Program-made: the position numbers and the translations under genes
The notes under the pieces: model-generated
What the model was told of the DNA's origin: nothing
Seen by the model: the letters and a program-made list of their open reading frames with translations, nothing else
Databases searched by the model: none
In this document: in pieces, positions 1 to 8,697 of the stretch
How positions within the stretch are numbered: position 1 is the first letter of the stretch
Layout of the letters: each line of letters starts with the position of its first letter
Virus record (IMG/VR): IMGVR_UViG_3300007504_000075
Coordinates: 1 to 21,813 of that record
Length of the DNA stretch: 21,813 nucleotides
Strand: one strand, 5' to 3'
DNA from: a virus

Positions 1-25
1 TATGGGTCGAACTCCGGTCCGTCAA
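1..25 (-). promoter_or_regulatory. Possible leftward promoter, partial at window edge
   Basis: Read on the minus strand, TTGACG (25 down to 20) is followed by 17 bases and then TA at positions 2-1, where a -10 hexamer would begin. The -10 box is cut off by the window edge, so only its first two bases are seen. The -35 box is the left arm of the inverted repeat shared with the rightward promoter. It would serve an unseen divergent gene. Confidence 0.4.
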
Positions 26-56
26 TGGATAGCTTTAAAAAGGCCCTCCTTGACGG
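19..56. repeat. Inverted repeat joining two divergent -35 boxes
   Basis: CCGTCAA (19-25) and TTGACGG (50-56) are perfect 7-base inverted arms around a 24-base spacer that is A/T-rich for this genome (ATGGATAGCTTTAAAAAGG). Each arm holds a TTGACG -35 element pointing outward. The arrangement resembles a phage control region in which one dimeric regulator could act on both promoters. The arms are seen; the operator role is inferred. Confidence 0.5.
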
Positions 57-78
57 GGGGTGCGCGGCCGGGTAGTAT
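50..78 (+). promoter_or_regulatory. Sigma70-type promoter for the first gene, leaderless layout
   Basis: TTGACG (50-55), a 17-base spacer and TAGTAT (73-78) form a good housekeeping-type promoter. The -10 box ends 6 bases before the ATG at 85, so transcription should begin at or next to the start codon. No Shine-Dalgarno sequence lies between the -10 box and the ATG. The predicted mRNA is leaderless, as is known for lambda cI made from PRM. Confidence 0.65.
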
Positions 79-84
79 CCGTTT

Positions 85-363
85 ATGCTCGTTCACACTC
101 TGATCTCTGCCCGGCTCCAGTTGCAAGGGCGCACCGTCGCCGATTTTCACCGGGATATGGTCGCCCGGGGCTTCCTGGGCTCCAAACAGGCGGTCTACCA
201 GTGGGTATCGGCCGCGACTTGCCCCTCTGCGTGCTGGTGGTCCGAGGTGGCCGACAGTCTCGGGGTGGATGTCCAAGACGTCGCCTTAGCTCGGCATGGG
301 CTGCTGACTCCGGCGCGAGCCCTGGCCCTGGCCACTACCACTAAACCCGGGGAGGCCGTATGA
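85..363 (+). CDS. Cro/CI-like helix-turn-helix regulator
   Basis: A 92-residue protein whose middle resembles a Cro/CI (XRE) DNA-binding domain. There is a helix around residues 18-28, then GSKQAVYQW (about 32-41) in the place of the turn and recognition helix, and then EVADSLGV (about 53-60), like the closing IAxALGV of XRE proteins. It is likely a phage transcription regulator binding near its own promoter. The ATG at 85 was chosen because it sits 6 bases after the -10 box; no ribosome-binding site precedes it. The next gene overlaps its stop by 4 bases (ATGA). It lacks a peptidase or oligomerisation domain of the lambda cI type, so it is Cro-sized. Fold assignment is by pattern only, and the operator is not proven. 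Confidence 0.6.
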   Translation: MLVHTLISARLQLQGRTVADFHRDMVARGFLGSKQAVYQWVSAATCPSACWWSEVADSLGVDVQDVALARHGLLTPARALALATTTKPGEAV

Positions 364-809
364 ACCTCCATCCGCTCCTCCCTCCCCCTCTCGGGGACCA
401 CCTCGAGCTACCGATAAAGGGCCGCATGGTGCGCGCTGTCGCGCTGCTGGCGATCCAGGTCTTCTTGGACCACCCGGGACTTACGTACCAGGAGGCCATG
501 TACAAGATCATCCGGCGGGCCTGGAGTGTGTGCGGGCAGATCGTATGGCTCGGCGTCGATGGCGGTCCCGAGATCGCGCAGATGGGCCAGGAAGAGCCCC
601 GAGGGCTTCCGTTGGTTGTGGGCAACCACGCGCTGACACCGCTCAACGTGGGCGGGCAGTCCCTCGACATGGCCATCGCCGAGCTGGGCCGCACGGGCGA
701 CTTCCCGGTACTGGTGCTGAATGCGCACCGGTTCGTTCATGGGATGTGGGCGCCGCGCGCCATCGGTGACTGGCTGGTGGACAACCCGACGGCGCGGGGT
801 GCGGTATGA
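360..809 (+). CDS. Unknown early phage protein (149 aa)
   Basis: I do not recognise a family. The ATG overlaps the previous stop (ATGA) and is preceded by GGGGAGG at a suitable distance, so the start is well supported. The protein has a proline-rich N-terminus (about 5-11), a hydrophobic helical stretch (about 23-37) and a C-terminal half rich in Gly, Leu and Val. There is no signal peptide, no cysteine cluster and no catalytic motif I can name. Its place between a repressor-like gene and the replication cassette suggests an early function, expressed from the promoter at 50-78. Coding potential is supported by tight coupling on both sides. Confidence 0.7.
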   Translation: MNLHPLLPPPLGDHLELPIKGRMVRAVALLAIQVFLDHPGLTYQEAMYKIIRRAWSVCGQIVWLGVDGGPEIAQMGQEEPRGLPLVVGNHALTPLNVGGQSLDMAIAELGRTGDFPVLVLNAHRFVHGMWAPRAIGDWLVDNPTARGAV

Positions 810-1033
810 CCCTCACGGAGCGACTCGCTGTAGCGTTGCTCGAGCAGTACGGTCTCGAGGCGGTGTGCCGCCTTCTGGACGACGCCGAGAACGGCGATCT
901 TCACCGCGACCCTGGGCCGGCCGAGGTGCAGGTCGAGCACCGTCGCCGCGCTCTCGCCCAGTTGGGCGAGATGAAACGGAACTGGCGCCCCCTGGTCCAT
1001 CCCGGCGACGTGTGCCGTCCGGGGGTGGCATGA
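806..1033 (+). CDS. Unknown small early protein (75 aa)
   Basis: Starts at an ATGA overlap with the upstream stop and ends in another ATGA overlap with the nuclease gene, which is the main support for it being real. The protein is mostly charged and helical: LTERLAVALLEQYGLEAVCRLLDDAE forms the N-terminal third, and a basic segment lies around residues 45-57. No domain is recognised. It may be an accessory factor of the downstream nuclease/helicase cassette, but this rests only on position. Confidence 0.65.
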   Translation: MTLTERLAVALLEQYGLEAVCRLLDDAENGDLHRDPGPAEVQVEHRRRALAQLGEMKRNWRPLVHPGDVCRPGVA

Positions 1034-1548
1034 GCCGCAACCCGCGCGCTGCGGGGCGCCGGTTCGAGCAGCGGATCGCCCGCGACCTGCGCGCCTGGCT
1101 CGGCGAGGACTGGACCGTGATGCGGAACCAGACCGATCGGCAGGCCGGACAGGGTGGGTGTGCGGGTGAATTCACGATCACCGGGCCGCACCGCTTCCCG
1201 TTCGCCATCGAGTGCAAGGACGGCCACGGCTTCGACTCGCGGCAGCTCTGGCGCATCCCGGTGCCTGGACCTCTGGTGTCCACTCCGAGCAAGCGCGGGT
1301 TCTGGGCTCAGGCTCAGGACCAGGCCGACGCGGTGGGCCTCGAGCCCCTTCTGGTGTTCCGTCGCGCATCGACGGGGACCGTGCTGGCTGCTGCTCGCCG
1401 GAGCGCGATGATCCACATCGGCGCCGCTGGGACTCGGTGCGACATCGAGATCGAGCGCTCCTGGATCCGGGTGGTCCGGTGGGCTGCGGTGCTCGACACC
1501 CTGCCGTCCATGCTGTTCGAGATGCCGGGCGCGCGGAGGGTAGCGTGA
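1030..1548 (+). CDS. PDDEXK-type nuclease, RecB/Holliday-resolvase-like
   Basis: A 172-residue protein with a PDDEXK layout: an early helix with E13 (RRFEQRIARDL), an acidic residue at E47 (GEF), then AIECKDG with E61-x-K63 as the core pair, followed by a helix with Q94 and Q97 (WAQAQDQADA, about 91-100) and a strand LLVFRR, as in archaeal Hjc and RecB-family nucleases. Small phage members of this fold cut branched or damaged DNA during replication or recombination. The usual Asp of the motif appears here as Glu47, or lies elsewhere. The frame is open upstream, but the ATG at 1030 overlaps the previous stop (ATGA) and fits the family N-terminus. It is followed by the exonuclease gene with a GTGA overlap. 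The nuclease fold is likely; the exact substrate is unknown. Confidence 0.7.
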   Translation: MSRNPRAAGRRFEQRIARDLRAWLGEDWTVMRNQTDRQAGQGGCAGEFTITGPHRFPFAIECKDGHGFDSRQLWRIPVPGPLVSTPSKRGFWAQAQDQADAVGLEPLLVFRRASTGTVLAAARRSAMIHIGAAGTRCDIEIERSWIRVVRWAAVLDTLPSMLFEMPGARRVA

Positions 1549-2183
1549 GTCGCCCGAACCTGCTCGCGCTGGACAGCGAGCTGGCCTCCCCTGCGGAGGG
1601 CGGCGCGGGGTTCATGGCGTCGGCGCTGAAGGCCGGGCCCGGGGTGGTCTGCGCCACGGGGACCGCGACGCCGCGAGCGGTGATCTTATACGCCGACCGG
1701 GCCAGCCAGGCGCGGCGTCGGGCGTTCGCCGCCCAGCTCGGGACCTATGAGGGGCTGCTGACGTGGGGCGGGCTGACGTTCGACGTCCCGGTGCTTAATG
1801 CGTGGTGGCCGGACTGGTCCAAGCACCTGCCGAACCGTCATGTGGACCTGATGGCGCTCTGCACGCTGCTGGCCCACGGGGTTCCTGCCGAGCAGCTTGA
1901 GAGGCTGGGACTCGGGTGGACGAAGCGGTGGCCGTCGTGGAAGCGGCTGGTGCGCGGCTGGGGTCTGGACAACGTCGGCATGCACACGCTACAGCGCCGG
2001 AAGGTCGAGGGCATGACCGGAGCCACTGCGCCGATCGCGTGGCAGGCCGGACGGCTGGATGAGGTTACCGAGTACTGTCTGGGCGACGTCACGCTGCTGT
2101 GGCGCCTGTACTGGCACGCCTGGAACGGCGGCGCGCTGAGCAACGGCAGCGCCAGCGTCAGGATCCCCCGGGAGCTGCTGTGA
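1545..2183 (+). CDS. DEDDy-type 3'-5' exonuclease
   Basis: A 212-residue protein with the acidic motifs of DnaQ/PolB-proofreading exonucleases: D10-x-E12 (LALDSEL) as Exo I, WGGLTFDVPVL with D80 as Exo II, HVDLM with D101, and Y177-x3-D181 (YCLGDVTLL) as Exo III of the DEDDy type. It should remove nucleotides from DNA 3' ends using two metal ions. No polymerase is visible in the window, so it may proofread for a host polymerase or process ends with the upstream nuclease. The start is a GTG overlapping the nuclease stop (GTGA); the longer open frame upstream is a shadow of the nuclease gene. It is coupled by GTGA to the next gene. It most resembles the stand-alone PolB-exonuclease-like family. 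Confidence 0.78.
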   Translation: MSRPNLLALDSELASPAEGGAGFMASALKAGPGVVCATGTATPRAVILYADRASQARRRAFAAQLGTYEGLLTWGGLTFDVPVLNAWWPDWSKHLPNRHVDLMALCTLLAHGVPAEQLERLGLGWTKRWPSWKRLVRGWGLDNVGMHTLQRRKVEGMTGATAPIAWQAGRLDEVTEYCLGDVTLLWRLYWHAWNGGALSNGSASVRIPRELL

Positions 2184-2860
2184 CCGTGGCGGTGGACTGG
2201 ACGTTCGTCGAGTGCGTGGTGCGCGACCTCGACTCCGAGGGCCTGGATCCGACGGCGCTGCTGTTCGCCGTGAGCGCGCTGGGCTGCGTGTGGAGTGACA
2301 GCGACGACGACCGGGAGGTCTTCAACGGAGCGGAGATCGCCTCCGCATTCGTGGTCGACGCGCGCCGGATCGAGGCGCTGTGCCACGGGCGCGACACGGG
2401 GCCGGGCACCAAGCAGCGGATAAGCGCGTTCTCCGGGCTCGAGTCCTGGGAGGACTTCGAGGCCCGGCTGGAGCGCGAGGACCAGGAGCGCAAGGCCCGC
2501 GAGGAGGAGGAGCGGCAGGAGCGCAGGGAGAGATACCGGCGCGAGTCGCAGAAGGCGTGCGCGGTACCGCGCGGGCAGCGCGCTGGCGAGGTCCGGCGGC
2601 GGCTGCGGGAGCACCGGGTGCCGCGGGAGAACCTGGCGCACGCGCTGCGGGCGCGGATCACCAACGGTCAGGCCCGCAAAATCGTCTGCCCGAAGTGTGG
2701 CAAACGCTCGGTCTGGTTCCATATCGAGCCCGGCCGGATGAGTGGGGCAGAGTGCAACCACAAAAAGTCATGTGGTTGGCACGGGGCGCTTGACCTGCTG
2801 GCGCTGATGTCTGGCGCGAGCGCCAACCCGGCCGCCAGCGGCCAGCGGAGCCTACTGTGA
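2180..2860 (+). CDS. Primase-like zinc-ribbon protein
   Basis: A 226-residue protein. It has an acidic N-terminal domain (1-90), a long highly charged Arg/Glu helix probably forming a coiled coil (about 92-125), a basic segment (131-165), and a C-terminal zinc ribbon with C170-x2-C173 and C192-x5-C198. The ribbon sequence (CPKCGKRSVWF, then CNHKKSCGW) resembles the DNA-binding ribbon at the N-terminus of phage primases. No TOPRIM or archaeo-eukaryotic primase catalytic motif is seen, so it may recognise template DNA for the helicase encoded next rather than make primers itself. It starts at a GTG overlapping the exonuclease stop (GTGA) and ends in a GTGA overlap with the helicase gene. The ribbon is clear; the role is inferred. 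Confidence 0.65.
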   Translation: MTVAVDWTFVECVVRDLDSEGLDPTALLFAVSALGCVWSDSDDDREVFNGAEIASAFVVDARRIEALCHGRDTGPGTKQRISAFSGLESWEDFEARLEREDQERKAREEEERQERRERYRRESQKACAVPRGQRAGEVRRRLREHRVPRENLAHALRARITNGQARKIVCPKCGKRSVWFHIEPGRMSGAECNHKKSCGWHGALDLLALMSGASANPAASGQRSLL

Positions 2861-4119
2861 ATCGCGAAGACCTGGAGCTGCTTGTGGGGATCGGGACAGA
2901 TCCGGAGGCGGGGCCACGCCCGGGCGTCTGGGCGATGCTGAACCGGTACAAGGACACCTATCGACGCGGGAAGCTGGTCGATGAGGGCGCACCGAAGGGG
3001 CGCCCGGGCAACATCATCAAGGTCCTGACGCATGACGACCGGTGGGCCGGACAGCTTCGGCTCAACGAATTTACCCAGGACCACGAGCGCAACGGGGAGG
3101 CCCTCGGAGAGACCGACGACACCCGGATCGGGGTCTGGATGGAGGAGCACTACGGGATGGAGGCCAAGACGTCGGCTGTCCGCGAGGCGGTGGCCGTCGT
3201 CACGGAGAACGAAAGGCACCATCCCGTCAGGGATTACCTGTCGGGGCTTCAGTGGGATGGAGAGAAGCGCATCCACCGATTGCTCAGCCGGTACATTGGA
3301 GCTGAAGATACGCCCCTGAATTCGGAGGTATCGACGCGCTGGTGTATCTCTGCTGTCGCGCGCATCCTAGTGCCTGGAACGAAGGTGGATACGACGCTCG
3401 TGCTCGTGGGCCCTCAAGGCGCGCTGAAGAGCACCGCGTTCCAGACGCTGGCGACCCGCGATGAGTGGTTCGCTGACTCAGCGCTGGACCTGCGCAGCAA
3501 GGACGCATACCAGGCGCTCCCCGGGGTCTGGATCTACGAACTGAGCGAGCTGGACTCAGTAAACCGGCGGGAGGCGTCGAGCGTTAAGGCGTTTCTCTCC
3601 TCGCGCGCAGACCGCTACCGGCCGTCGTTCGCGAAGCGCACGATCACCGTGAGGCGCCAGTGCGTCTTCGTGGGCACCACCAATGAGCAGGAGTTCCTGA
3701 ACGACCCGACGGGCGCTCGCCGGTTCTGGCCGGTGCGGGTGGGGGACATCGACCTCCCCGCGATCAGGCGAGACCGGGGCCAGATATGGGCCGAGGCTGT
3801 CCACCGGTTCCGCTCCAAGGAGCGTCACTGGCTCGATGCCATCTCCTCCAAGTTACTGGTGGAGGCGCAAGACGAGTTCCGGCGCGTCGACCCCTGGGAG
3901 CATCCGATTAAAGAGTTCCTGGCAAGGCCGACCAATCGGAACGGGGTCACCGTCGCGCAGATATTGACGTCGGCCTGCGAGCTGAAGGTGGACAAACAGG
4001 GGAAGAACCATTCGATGCGTGTAGCCGGAATCCTCACCGGACTCGGCTGCACAAAGAAGCGGAAGCGTCAAGGCGCTAACCGCCCGGTCCTCTGGTACCC
4101 TGAGGGGGTGAGGCCATGA
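2857..4119 (+). CDS. VapE-family SF3-like replicative helicase
   Basis: A 420-residue P-loop ATPase of the virulence-associated E (PF05272) type found in phage replication modules. Walker A is GPQGALKST (185-193). Walker B is in GVWIYELSELD (223-233). A sensor-like VGTTNE (272-277) and the arginine-rich GARRFWPV (286-293) follow, the latter a family signature. Residues 1-150 form the usual N-terminal part (NIIKVLTHDDRWAGQLRLNEF, about 52-72, and HHPVRDYLSGLQWDG, about 121-135). The C-terminal 60 residues are basic and look DNA-binding. It likely unwinds the phage origin. The start is GTG, overlapping the previous stop; SD-like GCGGAGCC lies just upstream. The candidate origin lies directly downstream. 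Many relatives are fused to a primase; here the zinc ribbon is a separate protein. Confidence 0.88.
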   Translation: MNREDLELLVGIGTDPEAGPRPGVWAMLNRYKDTYRRGKLVDEGAPKGRPGNIIKVLTHDDRWAGQLRLNEFTQDHERNGEALGETDDTRIGVWMEEHYGMEAKTSAVREAVAVVTENERHHPVRDYLSGLQWDGEKRIHRLLSRYIGAEDTPLNSEVSTRWCISAVARILVPGTKVDTTLVLVGPQGALKSTAFQTLATRDEWFADSALDLRSKDAYQALPGVWIYELSELDSVNRREASSVKAFLSSRADRYRPSFAKRTITVRRQCVFVGTTNEQEFLNDPTGARRFWPVRVGDIDLPAIRRDRGQIWAEAVHRFRSKERHWLDAISSKLLVEAQDEFRRVDPWEHPIKEFLARPTNRNGVTVAQILTSACELKVDKQGKNHSMRVAGILTGLGCTKKRKRQGANRPVLWYPEGVRP

Positions 4120-4316
4120 GAGCGCACCGGACACACCGGACACACCCTGGCCACACCTCAGGACCGGTAGGTGTGACCGTCAAAATCGACGATCCAGACG
4201 CAGTTTTGGGTACTGTGGACACACCGGACACGCCTCACGACGATCCAATACGCGCTCACACCAGAACGACTCCAAGCCAGTCCACCGGGCAAAAGTGTGG
4301 CCAGTGTGTCCAGTAA
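4116..4316 (+). CDS. Possible small His/Thr-rich ORF within the repeat region
   Basis: A 66-residue ORF beginning at an ATGA overlap with the helicase stop and preceded by a strong purine-rich SD (GAGGGGGTGAGG), so translation is plausible. Its sequence is low-complexity: an HRT repeat (residues 4-9), then HPGHT, many Thr, Pro and Asp, and a C-terminal CGQC. It is largely dictated by the 9-base and CACACC-type DNA repeats under it. No family is recognised. It may be a real short protein, or merely open because the repeats avoid stops. Confidence 0.35.
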   Translation: MRAHRTHRTHPGHTSGPVGVTVKIDDPDAVLGTVDTPDTPHDDPIRAHTRTTPSQSTGQKCGQCVQ

Positions 4317-4380
4317 GAAAAGAGTAGTTCAAAGGCTGAATATCCTGGCCACACTTTGGCCACACCTCCCCACACCCTGG
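4125..4380. repeat. Iteron-like repeat cluster, candidate replication origin
   Basis: Short repeats are clustered here. CACCGGACA occurs twice in tandem (4125-4133, 4134-4142), and TGGACACACCGGACAC follows at 4216-4231. CTGGCCACAC occurs at 4147-4156 and 4345-4354, TTGGCCACAC at 4356-4365, and the inverted GTGTGGCCAG at 4295-4304. GGCCACACCTC recurs at 4149-4159 and 4358-4368, and CACACCCTGG at 4141-4150 and 4371-4380. Between the inverted copies lies an A/T-rich patch (about 4312-4344) unusual for this genome. The position after a helicase gene and before a winged-helix gene fits a phage origin with iterons and an unwinding element. The repeats are seen; the origin function is inferred. Confidence 0.55.
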
Positions 4381-4385
4381 AAGGC

Positions 4386-4715
4386 ATGACCACCTCCAAG
4401 CAACATGTGATGTTCGGCGAGGTCTGGCCGACAGCTCGCAGTACGCCCCGAAGCCGCCTGGCGGCGCTGAAGCCCGCGGCCCTGATCGCCGGCATTCACT
4501 CGGCGTTGCGCGGCCAGGGCTGGGTGTCCAGCTACGAGCTGGATAACCTGCTGGTCAGGGCGGGCTGGAAGCGGGGGGTGCTGCACCCCCCGCGGCGTGG
4601 GTCTGTGGTCGATGAGGCGCTGGGCCGGATGCGTCGGAACGGGCTGGTGCAGCGGAGGACGGTGGAGCGGGTTGGGCTCGATCCTCGGCATGAGTGGCGC
4701 AGGGAGGCAGCATGA
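4386..4715 (+). CDS. Winged-helix DNA-binding protein
   Basis: A 109-residue basic protein. Residues about 30-100 fit a winged helix-turn-helix: helix AALIAGIHSALRGQG, then SYELDNLLVRAGW, then a recognition-type helix SVVDEALGRMRRNGLVQRR, then a short beta wing ending in HEWRRE. Such proteins are common phage regulators or origin-binding proteins. It begins directly after the repeat cluster, which could be its target. The ATG at 4386 follows GGAAGG, which is very close to the start, so a slightly different start (for example GTG 4407 or ATG 4410) is possible; the upstream TTG at 4356 lies inside a repeat and is not preferred. A 23-base near-perfect palindrome lies in its coding sequence. It ends in an ATGA overlap with the next gene. 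Confidence 0.65.
   Translation: MTTSKQHVMFGEVWPTARSTPRSRLAALKPAALIAGIHSALRGQGWVSSYELDNLLVRAGWKRGVLHPPRRGSVVDEALGRMRRNGLVQRRTVERVGLDPRHEWRREAA
4571..4593. repeat. Perfect 11-base palindrome arms inside the winged-helix gene
   Basis: GCGGGGGGTGC (4571-4581) and GCACCCCCCGC (4583-4593) are perfect inverted arms around a single T. As RNA it would fold into a very stable hairpin (8 G/C pairs with a 7-base loop, or more). No T-run follows, so it is not a standard intrinsic terminator. It may be a protein-binding site or simply G/C coincidence in the codons for RGVLHPPR. Confidence 0.5.
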
Positions 4716-5032
4716 GCAACGCCATGAAGCCGGGGCCCGATGCCTTGCTATCGCTGGATAGGGGCATCACCGAGCTGCGCGATGCGCTGGATCGGATGGT
4801 AGCGGAGCGCAGGGCGGCACCGACGCGCCTCCAGCGACTGGAGCGTGTGGCGGCTACTGCTCAGGCGTTCGCCTCAGACTTCTCGGATGGCACCCTGATC
4901 TACGAGGACGAGCAGGGCGATCAGAGCTGCCTGTCATGCAGCTCGCCAATCGGGCGCTGCTGGGAGGGGTGCAGGTGGCAGGCCCTCAGCGACGCCCTGG
5001 CCGCGCTGGCGGCTGAGAAGGAGGTGGCGTGA
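4712..5032 (+). CDS. Unknown small cysteine-containing protein (106 aa)
   Basis: Starts at an ATG overlapping the winged-helix stop (ATGA) with GGGAGG upstream; an in-frame GTG at 4694 is a less likely start. Residues 17-60 are helical and charged (ITELRDALDRMVAERRAAP). Four cysteines follow in CLSCSSPIGRCWEGC (about 72-86), a C-x2-C and C-x3-C pairing that could bind zinc. The C-terminus is an alanine-rich helix. No family is recognised. It sits just before the terminase genes and is coupled by GTGA to the next gene. Confidence 0.6.
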   Translation: MSNAMKPGPDALLSLDRGITELRDALDRMVAERRAAPTRLQRLERVAATAQAFASDFSDGTLIYEDEQGDQSCLSCSSPIGRCWEGCRWQALSDALAALAAEKEVA

Positions 5033-5334
5033 CCGTCTGCCTCCCCCGCTGGCTCCAGGACCAGGTTGGCATCCTGCGCGGCATGGGCTGTGACCCGGGT
5101 GCTGTGGCCTGGGCTGCGGAGATTGTGCAGCGCGTAGGCGCGACGGCGGCGACCATGGCGCCCACCGAGGACGGCAAGGGCGTGCTGGTGGGGTGGGCCA
5201 ACGCTGGGGGGACCGTGGACGTGATGGTGACCGAGCTGGGGGAGGTGGACGTGTTCATCTCAAGGGGCGCAGGGCAGGCGCGGCCGGGGGATGTGAGCCG
5301 GGCTGTGAGGGCTGGGCTTGGGTGGGGTGGGTGA
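5029..5334 (+). CDS. Unknown protein upstream of terminase (101 aa)
   Basis: Starts with GTG overlapping the previous stop. AAGGAGG (5018-5024), a full match to the canonical anti-SD, precedes it, so the start is strong and the host uses ordinary SD initiation. The protein has an N-terminal helical part (1-40) and a beta-rich centre (GVLVGWANAGGTVDVMVTELGEVDVFIS, written here only to its key turns at about 51-79). I recognise no domain. Position next to the small terminase gene suggests a packaging or late-gene role, but that is inference. It ends in TGATG, sharing one base with the terminase small subunit start. Confidence 0.6.
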   Translation: MTVCLPRWLQDQVGILRGMGCDPGAVAWAAEIVQRVGATAATMAPTEDGKGVLVGWANAGGTVDVMVTELGEVDVFISRGAGQARPGDVSRAVRAGLGWGG

Positions 5335-5789
5335 TGGCCAGGACCGGGCGACCGTCGAAGCTGACTGAGGAGGCAGTCAGCGCCATAGAAGAGGCGCTGG
5401 GGAGCGGCTGTTCTATGGACGACGCCGCAGACGCAGCGAGTATCGACCGGGCCACCCTGTACCGGTGGATTGAGAGGGGTGAGGGGGCGAAGTCTGGGGA
5501 GTATAGCGACTTCTGCGACCGGCTCAATCGCGCACGCGCGAGGGGCAAGGTCGCGATGGTTAAGGCCATCAGGAAGGCAGGAGACAAGGACTGGCGCGCT
5601 AACGCCCACATCCTGGCCTGTCGCTACCCGGAGGAGTGGAGCGAGAAGCGGATCATAGAGGCCACCATCAAGGCGGTGCAGACCATCGAGGACCCGGAGG
5701 CGTGGGCGAAGCAGATCATGGAGCTGGCGCCGGTGGCCGCCGAGCTGCTCGGACTCGAGATGGAGATCCGCGGTGAGGCCCCCGAGTAG
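5334..5789 (+). CDS. terS: Terminase small subunit (DNA-binding)
   Basis: A 151-residue protein with an N-terminal helix-turn-helix typical of small terminase subunits: GRPSKLTEE (5-13), then CSMDDAADAASIDRATLYRWIERGE (about 26-50), where the second helix would contact DNA. The rest is helical and charged (RLNRARARGKVAMVKAIRKAG, about 63-83), consistent with an oligomerisation core. It recognises the phage packaging site and feeds DNA to the large subunit. Size and position immediately before the large subunit support the call. The ATG at 5334 shares its first base with the preceding stop (TGATG). The gene overlaps the large subunit by 17 bases. Similar HTH starts also occur in transposon resolvases, but the context makes terminase far more likely. 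Confidence 0.8.
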   Translation: MARTGRPSKLTEEAVSAIEEALGSGCSMDDAADAASIDRATLYRWIERGEGAKSGEYSDFCDRLNRARARGKVAMVKAIRKAGDKDWRANAHILACRYPEEWSEKRIIEATIKAVQTIEDPEAWAKQIMELAPVAAELLGLEMEIRGEAPE

Positions 5790-7230
5790 CCTGCGGGGCC
5801 AGGCGGCCCTCGCTGTCGGTGCACACCCGCTGACCAGGGCCCGGCTGTGGCACCGAGAGCCGCCGCAGACCAGCCAGCGGCGGGCAGCCCAGGCGGTGCT
5901 CGGACCAGGCATCCTGATAGGCATCGTCCTGGGAGGGAACCGCTCGGGGAAGACGGAGGAGGGCGCGCAGATAGCCGTGGCGTCCGCCGAGGGGAAGCAG
6001 AGCCTGGCGGTGCAGATATGGGCGAGGCTCAACCGCCTCGACATCAGCGAGCTGCCAGATGGGCCCGGCCGCGTGTGCTGCTCGTCGCTGACCGGCAACG
6101 ACAGCATTCGGGTGCAGCGCAAGAAGGTGGAGAAGTACCTGCCGCCGGGCACGAAGTGGAAGAACCAGCAGGGGCACGGTGAGGCGTCGGCCCACCTGCC
6201 GGGCGGCGGGCTGTTGCTGTTCAAGTCCAACGACCAGGGCCGGCGAGCCTTCCAGGGCGACAACTGGGACCTGTTCTGGGCCGACGAGGAGCACGACGAG
6301 GCCGTGGTGGACGAGGCCCGCATGCGCCTCGTGGATCGGTCTGGCCGGGCGCTCTTCACTATGACCCCACTCAAGGGGCAGACCTGGGTGTGGGAGCGCT
6401 TCGTAGACAAGCCCGAGTCCGGCTCGGTGGTCTACGCCCTGCACTCCGCCGATAACCCGCACATCCCCAGGGAGTACATGGAGGCGCTGTTGTCGAAGTA
6501 CGGCAGCCGCCAGCGCGCGGCGCGAAGCCGCGGTGAATTCGTGGCACTGGAGGGGCTGGTGTATCCGGACTGGCGCCGGGACATCCACGTCATCAGCCCG
6601 TTCGACATCCCGCAGAGCTGGGACCGCTACCAGGCGATCGACTTCGGGTACACCAACCCGACGGCGGTGCTCTGGGGCGCGCTGGATCCAGATGGGCGCC
6701 TGTTCATCTACCGGGAGCACTATCGGGCGCGCTGGCTCATCGGGCAGCACGCGGAGGCCATCATGGAGGCCGAGGCGTGCCCGCGCTGCTGGGACGCCGA
6801 CGGCTTCGGGCCGATGGAGAAGGCCGAGAGCTGGTGGGAAGGGGCTGCTGAGCGCGCCGAGAAGTGCCCCGCCTGCAAGGGCTCAGACTGGCCGGGCCGG
6901 CGAGAGCCAGAGCCCGAGGTGCGGTGGGCTGACCCTGAGAACGTGGAAAACCGGCGAACGCTGCATCAGGACTACGACCTCCACACGCAGATGGCGATCA
7001 AGGACGTGCTGCCAGGCATCGAGGCGGTGGCCGGACGGCTGGTGGCGCAGGGCGACGGACGGCCAAGGCTGTACGTGTTCCGGTCGTGCCCGAAGCTCAT
7101 CAGGGAGATCGGGAACTACCGGTGGAAGCAGAGGACGGCGGACGGTAAGCCGAAGCCGATCAAGCAGGATGACCACGCGGTCGATGCGCTCCGGTACATG
7201 GTGTTCGGGCTGCAGCGATTGGGGGTGTAG
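5773..7230 (+). CDS. terL: Terminase large subunit (packaging ATPase/nuclease)
   Basis: A 485-residue packaging motor. Walker A is GGNRSGKT (54-61). Walker B is WDLFWADEEHDE (165-176), with the catalytic Glu after D171. The coupling motif is TMTP (196-199). The RNase H-like nuclease carries D290 (AIDFGYTNP), D387 (WADPEN) and D471 within QDDHAVDALRY. It pumps DNA into the prohead and cuts the concatemer. Between nuclease motifs I and II are two CxxC pairs (C336/C339 and C365/C368) that look like a zinc ribbon insertion. The start is GTG with GGAG 7 bases upstream, overlapping the small subunit by 17 bases. Length is usual for the family. The module boundary after it contains a new promoter. 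Confidence 0.95.
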   Translation: MRPPSSLRGQAALAVGAHPLTRARLWHREPPQTSQRRAAQAVLGPGILIGIVLGGNRSGKTEEGAQIAVASAEGKQSLAVQIWARLNRLDISELPDGPGRVCCSSLTGNDSIRVQRKKVEKYLPPGTKWKNQQGHGEASAHLPGGGLLLFKSNDQGRRAFQGDNWDLFWADEEHDEAVVDEARMRLVDRSGRALFTMTPLKGQTWVWERFVDKPESGSVVYALHSADNPHIPREYMEALLSKYGSRQRAARSRGEFVALEGLVYPDWRRDIHVISPFDIPQSWDRYQAIDFGYTNPTAVLWGALDPDGRLFIYREHYRARWLIGQHAEAIMEAEACPRCWDADGFGPMEKAESWWEGAAERAEKCPACKGSDWPGRREPEPEVRWADPENVENRRTLHQDYDLHTQMAIKDVLPGIEAVAGRLVAQGDGRPRLYVFRSCPKLIREIGNYRWKQRTADGKPKPIKQDDHAVDALRYMVFGLQRLGV

Positions 7231-7251: not shown

Positions 7252-7281
7252 TCTACAATTCGTAGCGGCCTGCGTTATCAT
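7252..7281 (+). promoter_or_regulatory. Putative promoter for the portal gene, leaderless layout
   Basis: TCTACA (7252-7257), an 18-base spacer and TATCAT (7276-7281, five of six consensus bases) precede the portal ATG at 7288 by exactly 6 bases. No Shine-Dalgarno lies upstream of the portal ATG. This repeats the layout of the first promoter in the window. The 57-base gap here is one of the few real intergenic spaces. The -35 box is weaker than the -10 box. Confidence 0.5.
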
Positions 7282-7287
7282 CGGGCC

Positions 7288-8697
7288 ATGAGCACCGCTC
7301 TCACTGTCCGCCCGTCCCTGTTCGTCCGCATGGTCCGCGCCACGCCCCTACTGCGTGCGCTGATCCCTGTGGAGAACCCGCAGGAGCACATCGCAGGCTC
7401 GGACTACGTGAGCACGGGCCCGATGGGGACTGCGCCTTCGTTCAGCGTCGCGCGGTCTATGTCTGCCTACGGGGCCTTCCCGTGGGTGGTGGCGTGCGTC
7501 GAGGCGCTGTGCACCGACCTGGGTGGCCTGCCGCTGCGGGTGAAGGTGGGCGGCGAGCGGCAGGACAACCACCCCGTGCTCGACCTGATGGCGCGCCCGT
7601 CAGAGCGGACGAGCGGGCTGGTGTTCATGCACCAGTGGATCACCGACCTGTCGCTGACGGGCTGGGCTCCGTGCCTGGTGCTGGTGGACCACCGGGGCGA
7701 CCCGGCGTCTGTGGTGCGGCTGCACCCCCAGCGCACGACCATCAAGCCGACGCCCGCCGGCGAGCCCGACGTCTACGTCTACAACCACGGCGGCGGCGAG
7801 CCCCAGCCGTACCGCTACGATGACGTGCTGTGCCCGCGCCGCCCCAGCTGGGAGGACGACCCGAGCAGCGTGTACGGGCAGGGCGCGATCCGGGCGCTGA
7901 ACGAGACTCTGACCGCTGACCTGGCGTTCCAGAAGCTCACGGCTCAAGCTGCGCGCCACGGGCGACCCGCTGCGGTGGTCAAGCCCGCCGTCGGGCCGGA
8001 CAAGGCGGTGACCACCTGGAATCCGAAGAAGGTCAAGGAGGTCAAGCGCGCCGTGGAAAAGGCCGCAGGCGACAGCCACGGCGGCATCATGGTGCTCAAC
8101 GCCCTGCTCGACATCGAGACCCTGGGCTGGAGTCCTCGCGACATGGAGGCCCCGAAGCAGGCTGAGCTCTCCCGCGAGACCATCCTGGCCGCCTTCCACG
8201 TTCCACCCTCCCGCGTCGGGCTGCCCACGGCGAACTACGCCACGCAGGCGCAGCAGATGAAGACCTACTGGGAGCACCTACAGGGGCTGGCCGCGCTGAT
8301 CGCTGGGGAGCTGACCCGCCTGGCGCGCCGCTGGGATCCGTCGGCGGTGGTCTACTTCGACTTCTCCGGCGTCGAGGCGCTCCAGGCGCAGCGGTCTGAG
8401 CGCCTCCAGCGCGTGCAGCTCCACACCTTCAACGGCTTGAGCGCCGCCGACGCCTACCGCGCTGAGGGCTTCGATGAGCTCGCCGACAAGGTCCGCGACG
8501 ACGTGGACGAGAAGCAGGACGCCGCGCGCGGCCTGGCGCTGGACATCCTCCGCAGCGGTGAGCCCCTGGACGACACCATGCGGCATGAGCTGATCGCTGC
8601 GCTGGACGGCGGGTGGCAGGAGCGCGGGCTGCGGCTGGTCGAAGGTGGCAAGCGCGAGCCGGTGGCCGACATGGGCTGGCTCGCACCGGGGGCGTGA
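7288..8697 (+). CDS. Portal protein (HK97-type)
   Basis: A 469-residue protein of the Phage_portal (PF04860) type. It forms the dodecameric DNA entry ring at the capsid vertex and docks the terminase. Recognisable portions are AYGAFPWVVACVEALCTDLGGLPLRV (shortened here; about 60-86, the helix after the clip region start), DNHPVLDLMARPSE (about 92-105), the beta-rich wing, and ETILAAFHVPPSRVGL (about 296-311), which is highly typical of HK97 portals, followed by the QQMKTYWEHLQGL helix. The C-terminus has a charged helical crown. The ATG is chosen by the -10 box 6 bases upstream; there is no SD. The following minor head gene begins in a TGATG overlap. Gene order terminase-portal-head protein agrees. 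Confidence 0.92.
   Translation: MSTALTVRPSLFVRMVRATPLLRALIPVENPQEHIAGSDYVSTGPMGTAPSFSVARSMSAYGAFPWVVACVEALCTDLGGLPLRVKVGGERQDNHPVLDLMARPSERTSGLVFMHQWITDLSLTGWAPCLVLVDHRGDPASVVRLHPQRTTIKPTPAGEPDVYVYNHGGGEPQPYRYDDVLCPRRPSWEDDPSSVYGQGAIRALNETLTADLAFQKLTAQAARHGRPAAVVKPAVGPDKAVTTWNPKKVKEVKRAVEKAAGDSHGGIMVLNALLDIETLGWSPRDMEAPKQAELSRETILAAFHVPPSRVGLPTANYATQAQQMKTYWEHLQGLAALIAGELTRLARRWDPSAVVYFDFSGVEALQAQRSERLQRVQLHTFNGLSAADAYRAEGFDELADKVRDDVDEKQDAARGLALDILRSGEPLDDTMRHELIAALDGGWQERGLRLVEGGKREPVADMGWLAPGA

Follow-up and report, generated by a model that had tools for sequence, protein, structure and literature searches.

The left end of the window, as we call the 21,813-nt stretch of the virus record IMGVR_UViG_3300007504_000075 analyzed here, carries two sigma-70-type promoter sequences that point away from each other, with a set of genes beginning just downstream of each. 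We consider it likely that the region is a regulated bidirectional early promoter hub. The phage itself is tailed and GC-rich, with 68% G+C in its 24.2 kb of known sequence. In the arrangement that we propose, two promoters of the host sigma type, placed back to back, would form the central early control region. The rightward promoter would give a leaderless mRNA that begins with the gene of a 92-aa probable HTH protein and continues into replication, nuclease, and terminase genes, and the leftward promoter a transcript for a 23-aa peptide followed by Zn-ribbon-like, pentapeptide-repeat, Mgm101-like annealing, and Cro/CI-type proteins. An AT-rich block may act as an UP element shared by the two polymerases, and most likely one or both of the HTH proteins would bind here and tune how the two directions are balanced. 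For an uncultured phage lineage without close relatives in the searched collections, the region provides a clear and testable point of control, and it is a tidy case of two near-consensus promoters combined with a probably leaderless regulator mRNA. The known picture of phage switches is unchanged by it.

Divergent promoter pair and AT-rich tract

An independent contig of this phage supplied the sequence to the left of the window. A search of viral contigs with the first rightward protein returned a single locus, L002, on IMGVR_UViG_3300007765_000078. This 17.5-kb contig has one mismatch to the window across 15,084 bp and reaches 2,420 bp further left; L002 positions are converted to window positions by subtracting 2420. 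The left end of the known phage sequence is incomplete.

The preliminary description, made from the window, had pointed to CCGTCAA (19-25) and TTGACGG (50-56) as inverted arms that each contain an outward TTGACG, to a rightward TAGTAT at 17-nt spacing, and to a leftward TA at the same distance at the window edge. All of these letters are as described, and L002 completes the edge TA as TAGGGT, with minus-strand genes immediately beyond it, as that description had anticipated. Both strands thus carry an outward sigma-70-type pattern, TTGACG-17-TAGTAT and TTGACG-17-TAGGGT (Table 1). The gap between the two arms is 24 bp, the minus-strand genes begin about 23 bp past the leftward -10 box, and the intergenic region between the divergent genes measures 110 bp.

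Table 1. Promoter elements and genes around the divergent region. Positions are those of the window unless marked L002.
Feature	Position	Strand	Remarks
Leftward -10 box TAGGGT	2 to -3 (L002 2422-2417)	-	read from L002; window 1..2 holds only TA
Leftward -35 box TTGACG	20..25	-	17-nt spacer to TAGGGT
AT-rich tract ATAGCTTTAAAAA	29..41		most AT-rich 13-mer of 24.2 kb
Rightward -35 box TTGACG	50..55	+	seen in the sequence
Rightward -10 box TAGTAT	73..78	+	17 nt past -35; 6 nt ahead of ATG
92-aa protein	85..363	+	first rightward gene; probable XRE (Cro/CI)-type HTH, predicted fold only
Rightward gene block	360..7230	+	tightly packed/overlapping; from 149-aa gene to large terminase
149-aa and 75-aa proteins	within 360..7230, before 1030	+	no assigned function
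RusA-like/PDDEXK nuclease	1030-1548	+	
Exonuclease-like protein	ends 2183	+	
VapE-type helicase	2857-4119	+	
Large terminase	5773-7230	+	
23-aa reading frame	ATG at -26	-	first leftward gene
Zn-ribbon-like protein	GTGA overlap with 23-aa frame	-	
Pentapeptide-repeat protein	L002 1297-2025	-	
Annealing protein, Mgm101-like	after pentapeptide gene	-	phrog_11717; annotated relative named mgM101-like
Cro/CI-type HTH protein	GTGA overlap with annealing gene; start about 2.06 kb beyond the left window edge	-	runs off contig

The strict pattern TTGAC-N-(16-18 nt)-TAnnnT occurs at two sites on both strands of the 24.2 kb, exactly these two promoters, against a mean of 0.155 in 200 shuffles. The expectation for the 17.5-kb contig is 0.09 sites, and no shuffle out of 200 held two; likewise, when the 110-bp intergenic region was shuffled 5000 times, no shuffle gave one strict match per strand. 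A simple promoter scan of the first 3 kb of the window had the rightward promoter as its sole match. On these counts the pair of predicted promoters is confirmed as real, far beyond chance, and we infer that both are transcribed. The leftward -10 box is a poor match to TATAAT (three of six positions), so the leftward promoter rests mainly on its -35 box and the spacing.

The tract ATAGCTTTAAAAA, which separates the two -35 boxes, has 11 A/T, a count that no other 13-mer of the known sequence reaches. It lies about 39-56 bp upstream of both predicted starts, a location usual for UP elements, and may be an UP element common to the two promoters.

Genes on the two sides

The rightward -10 box and the first start codon form the arrangement TAGTAT-N6-ATG. 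With 6 nt separating the end of the -10 box from the ATG, and neither a Shine-Dalgarno nor another purine-rich site in front of the gene, the rightward mRNA is predicted to be, and probably is, leaderless. The 17.5-kb contig holds two TAnnnT-N6-ATG sites with 0.8 expected, a count that is itself not unusual, and both fall at real gene starts, those of the 92-aa gene and of the portal gene at 7288. Ahead of the latter we observed TCTACA-18-TATCAT-N6-ATG (window 7252-7290), a probable second leaderless promoter by its sequence, which would divide the rightward genes into early and structural sets.

The 92-aa protein had been described from its sequence as a Cro/CI-like regulator. That assignment is probable at the level of predicted fold, and no sequence family supports it. 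The protein has no match in Pfam or NCBIfam, no useful score against PHROGs (PHROG 35, transcriptional repressor, at an E-value of 0.4 only), and no match among PDB sequences or phage records. In a single-sequence model of low confidence (pLDDT 69) the helices follow the XRE order. XRE proteins dominate the lists from both Foldseek, with E-values above 0.1, and VIA-align 2; the best matches are TP901-1 CI (Z 6.3) and the 434 repressor (Z 6.2), at Z-scores that alone are not conclusive. Taken together, the model makes the product probably an XRE-type HTH protein.

The minus-strand genes are tightly packed, with two GTGA overlaps, and their codon-position G+C fits recognised genes. Some pentapeptide-repeat proteins mimic DNA, and it is conceivable that the pentapeptide-repeat protein of the leftward set acts against host or defence enzymes. 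The Cro/CI-type gene matches Pfam HTH_31 (E 1.5e-9) and HTH_3 (E 1.6e-8) as well as PHROG transcriptional regulators and repressors. In profile searches of the window, the sister contigs, and distant relatives, the HTH_3 match was confined to the left extension. A Cro/C1-type HTH gene lies past the annealing-protein gene in one distant phage, L085, as well, with one gene between. A divergent repressor or integrase had been anticipated immediately left of the window. The expected repressor-like gene is indeed clear, but it is 2 kb away, the last of the known leftward set after at least four other genes and not adjacent to the promoters; no integrase was found in any of the contigs.

Inverted repeat and operator search

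The preliminary description had further suggested that one regulator dimer could bind both TTGACGG arms and control the two directions at once. In favour of such a reading, each arm is a perfect inverted copy of the other over 7 bp, at a distance of about three turns of the helix. However, 20% of the shuffles of the intergenic region contain a perfect inverted repeat of 7 bp whose spacer is 40 or less, so that the observed repeat is at chance level, and six of the seven bases of each arm are -35 consensus. The arm centres are 31 bp apart, a spacing too long for one Cro/CI-type dimer on its usual operator. The mapped Cro operator of phage PY54 measures 16 bp (PMC4488713), against these 31 bp. 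A dimer on the two arms is therefore very improbable. The inverted repeat is incidental, and we take it for a pair of opposed -35 boxes with one further base.

Searches of the same intergenic region revealed no operator-like dyad or repeated site that stands out: the best dyad has 8 bp and was equalled in 94% of shuffles, and no direct repeat was found. Imperfect operators may still lie there. We also considered the 10-mer GGTAGTATCC, which is common to window 71-80, at the rightward -10 box, and L002 2028-2037; with at most one mismatch these are its only sites in L002 (0.09 expected). The second copy comes directly ahead of the pentapeptide start codon, and the annealing-protein gene is preceded by a comparable sequence (GGATACTACCTGATG versus GGAGAATACCTGATG), so the copy at the pentapeptide gene is more likely part of the translation start, and we do not rely on the 10-mer as a common operator. 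A hairpin CGGGTAGTATCCG over the -10 box was discarded as a terminator, being weak with only five pairs.

Comparison with known switches, lifestyle, and relatives

Two well-described phages offer the closest architectural precedents. In TP901-1 the promoters PR and PL lie back to back, nearly symmetric about a central operator, and the CI gene is on one side and the MOR gene on the other (PMC7250872). The present region shares the back-to-back promoters, and the model of the 92-aa protein is closest to the N-terminal domain of TP901-1 CI, tied with the 434 repressor; in TP901-1, however, the two regulator genes adjoin each other divergently and their operators have been mapped, whereas here the repressor-like gene is 2 kb off and no operator is visible. 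In PY54, divergent promoters in a region of 116 bp yield the cI and cro mRNAs, both of which lack a leader (PMC4488713). Again the short intergenic region (110 bp here) is alike, as is the leaderless mRNA starting at AUG, which is a prediction in our case. The differences are that both PY54 mRNAs are leaderless and an operator has been mapped, and here only the rightward mRNA is predicted to be leaderless. By analogy the region plausibly works like TP901-1 or PY54. Since the clear repressor-like gene lies away from the promoters and an operator cannot be seen, we do not class the region with their type of switch.

How far regulation goes is where the possible explanations part. At one end, the phage could be lytic and both early promoters constitutive; host polymerase would fire them when the phage enters, and the HTH proteins would act elsewhere or only damp early transcription. 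The near-consensus -35 boxes, the AT-rich tract as a potential UP element, and the replication and recombination genes directly downstream on the two sides all agree with this, as does the absence of an integrase. Two HTH-type regulators, however, exceed what constitutive early expression needs, and we regard this explanation as a serious possibility that falls somewhat short of convincing. Our preferred reading of the region as a regulated hub gives one or both of these proteins a likely role at the promoters themselves.

At the other end stands a true lysis-lysogeny switch, as the preliminary description had proposed, with the leftward Cro/CI-type protein as prophage repressor, the 92-aa protein as its Cro- or MOR-like opponent, and operators in the intergenic region. 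The divergent promoters, the clear Cro/CI-type gene at left, the probable XRE fold of the rightward protein with its likeness to TP901-1 CI, and the precedents of TP901-1 and PY54 speak for it. Against it are the place of the repressor-like gene, 2 kb off at the end of a recombination gene set, the lack of an operator dyad above chance, and the absence of an integrase or serine recombinase from all contigs: profiles of tyrosine and serine recombinases (PF00589, PF00239) found none in the window, three sister contigs, and two distant relatives, the left end of this phage being incomplete. Lysogeny is possible, and such a switch seems to us somewhat less probable than not. A more specific arrangement is unlikely, namely a divergent switch in which a repressor encoded at the far end of the recombination set would face an HTH protein that has a leaderless mRNA and no known relatives in sequence, while two polymerases competed for one shared AT-rich UP element.

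The searched collections yielded no close relatives beyond the same phage. Searches with the helicase, annealing protein, portal, capsid, and repressor returned either the same phage or relatives at most 59% identical in one protein, and none of the latter encodes a relative of the 92-aa protein. The related phage G002 has another gene order upstream of the helicase, and there is no HTH_3 match there. Among bacterial genomes, the portal search gave no match and the terminase search gave only matches of 29-33%, all in Clostridia-type assemblies and too distant to name a host. In mycobacteria, TANNNT promoters with leaderless mRNAs are common, and those of M. tuberculosis have no conserved -35 (PMC3898074). 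The TAnnnT -10 box placed for a transcription start at the start codon is alike in our phage; in contrast to M. tuberculosis, both of its -35 boxes are near consensus. The combination of TAnnnT and a predicted leaderless start is a hint to the host and no more. With regard to the other end of the phage, three contigs (the window, 3300007512_000328, and 3300007504_000882) have an identical last base, window 21813, which marks either the end of the genome or a break common to the assemblies.
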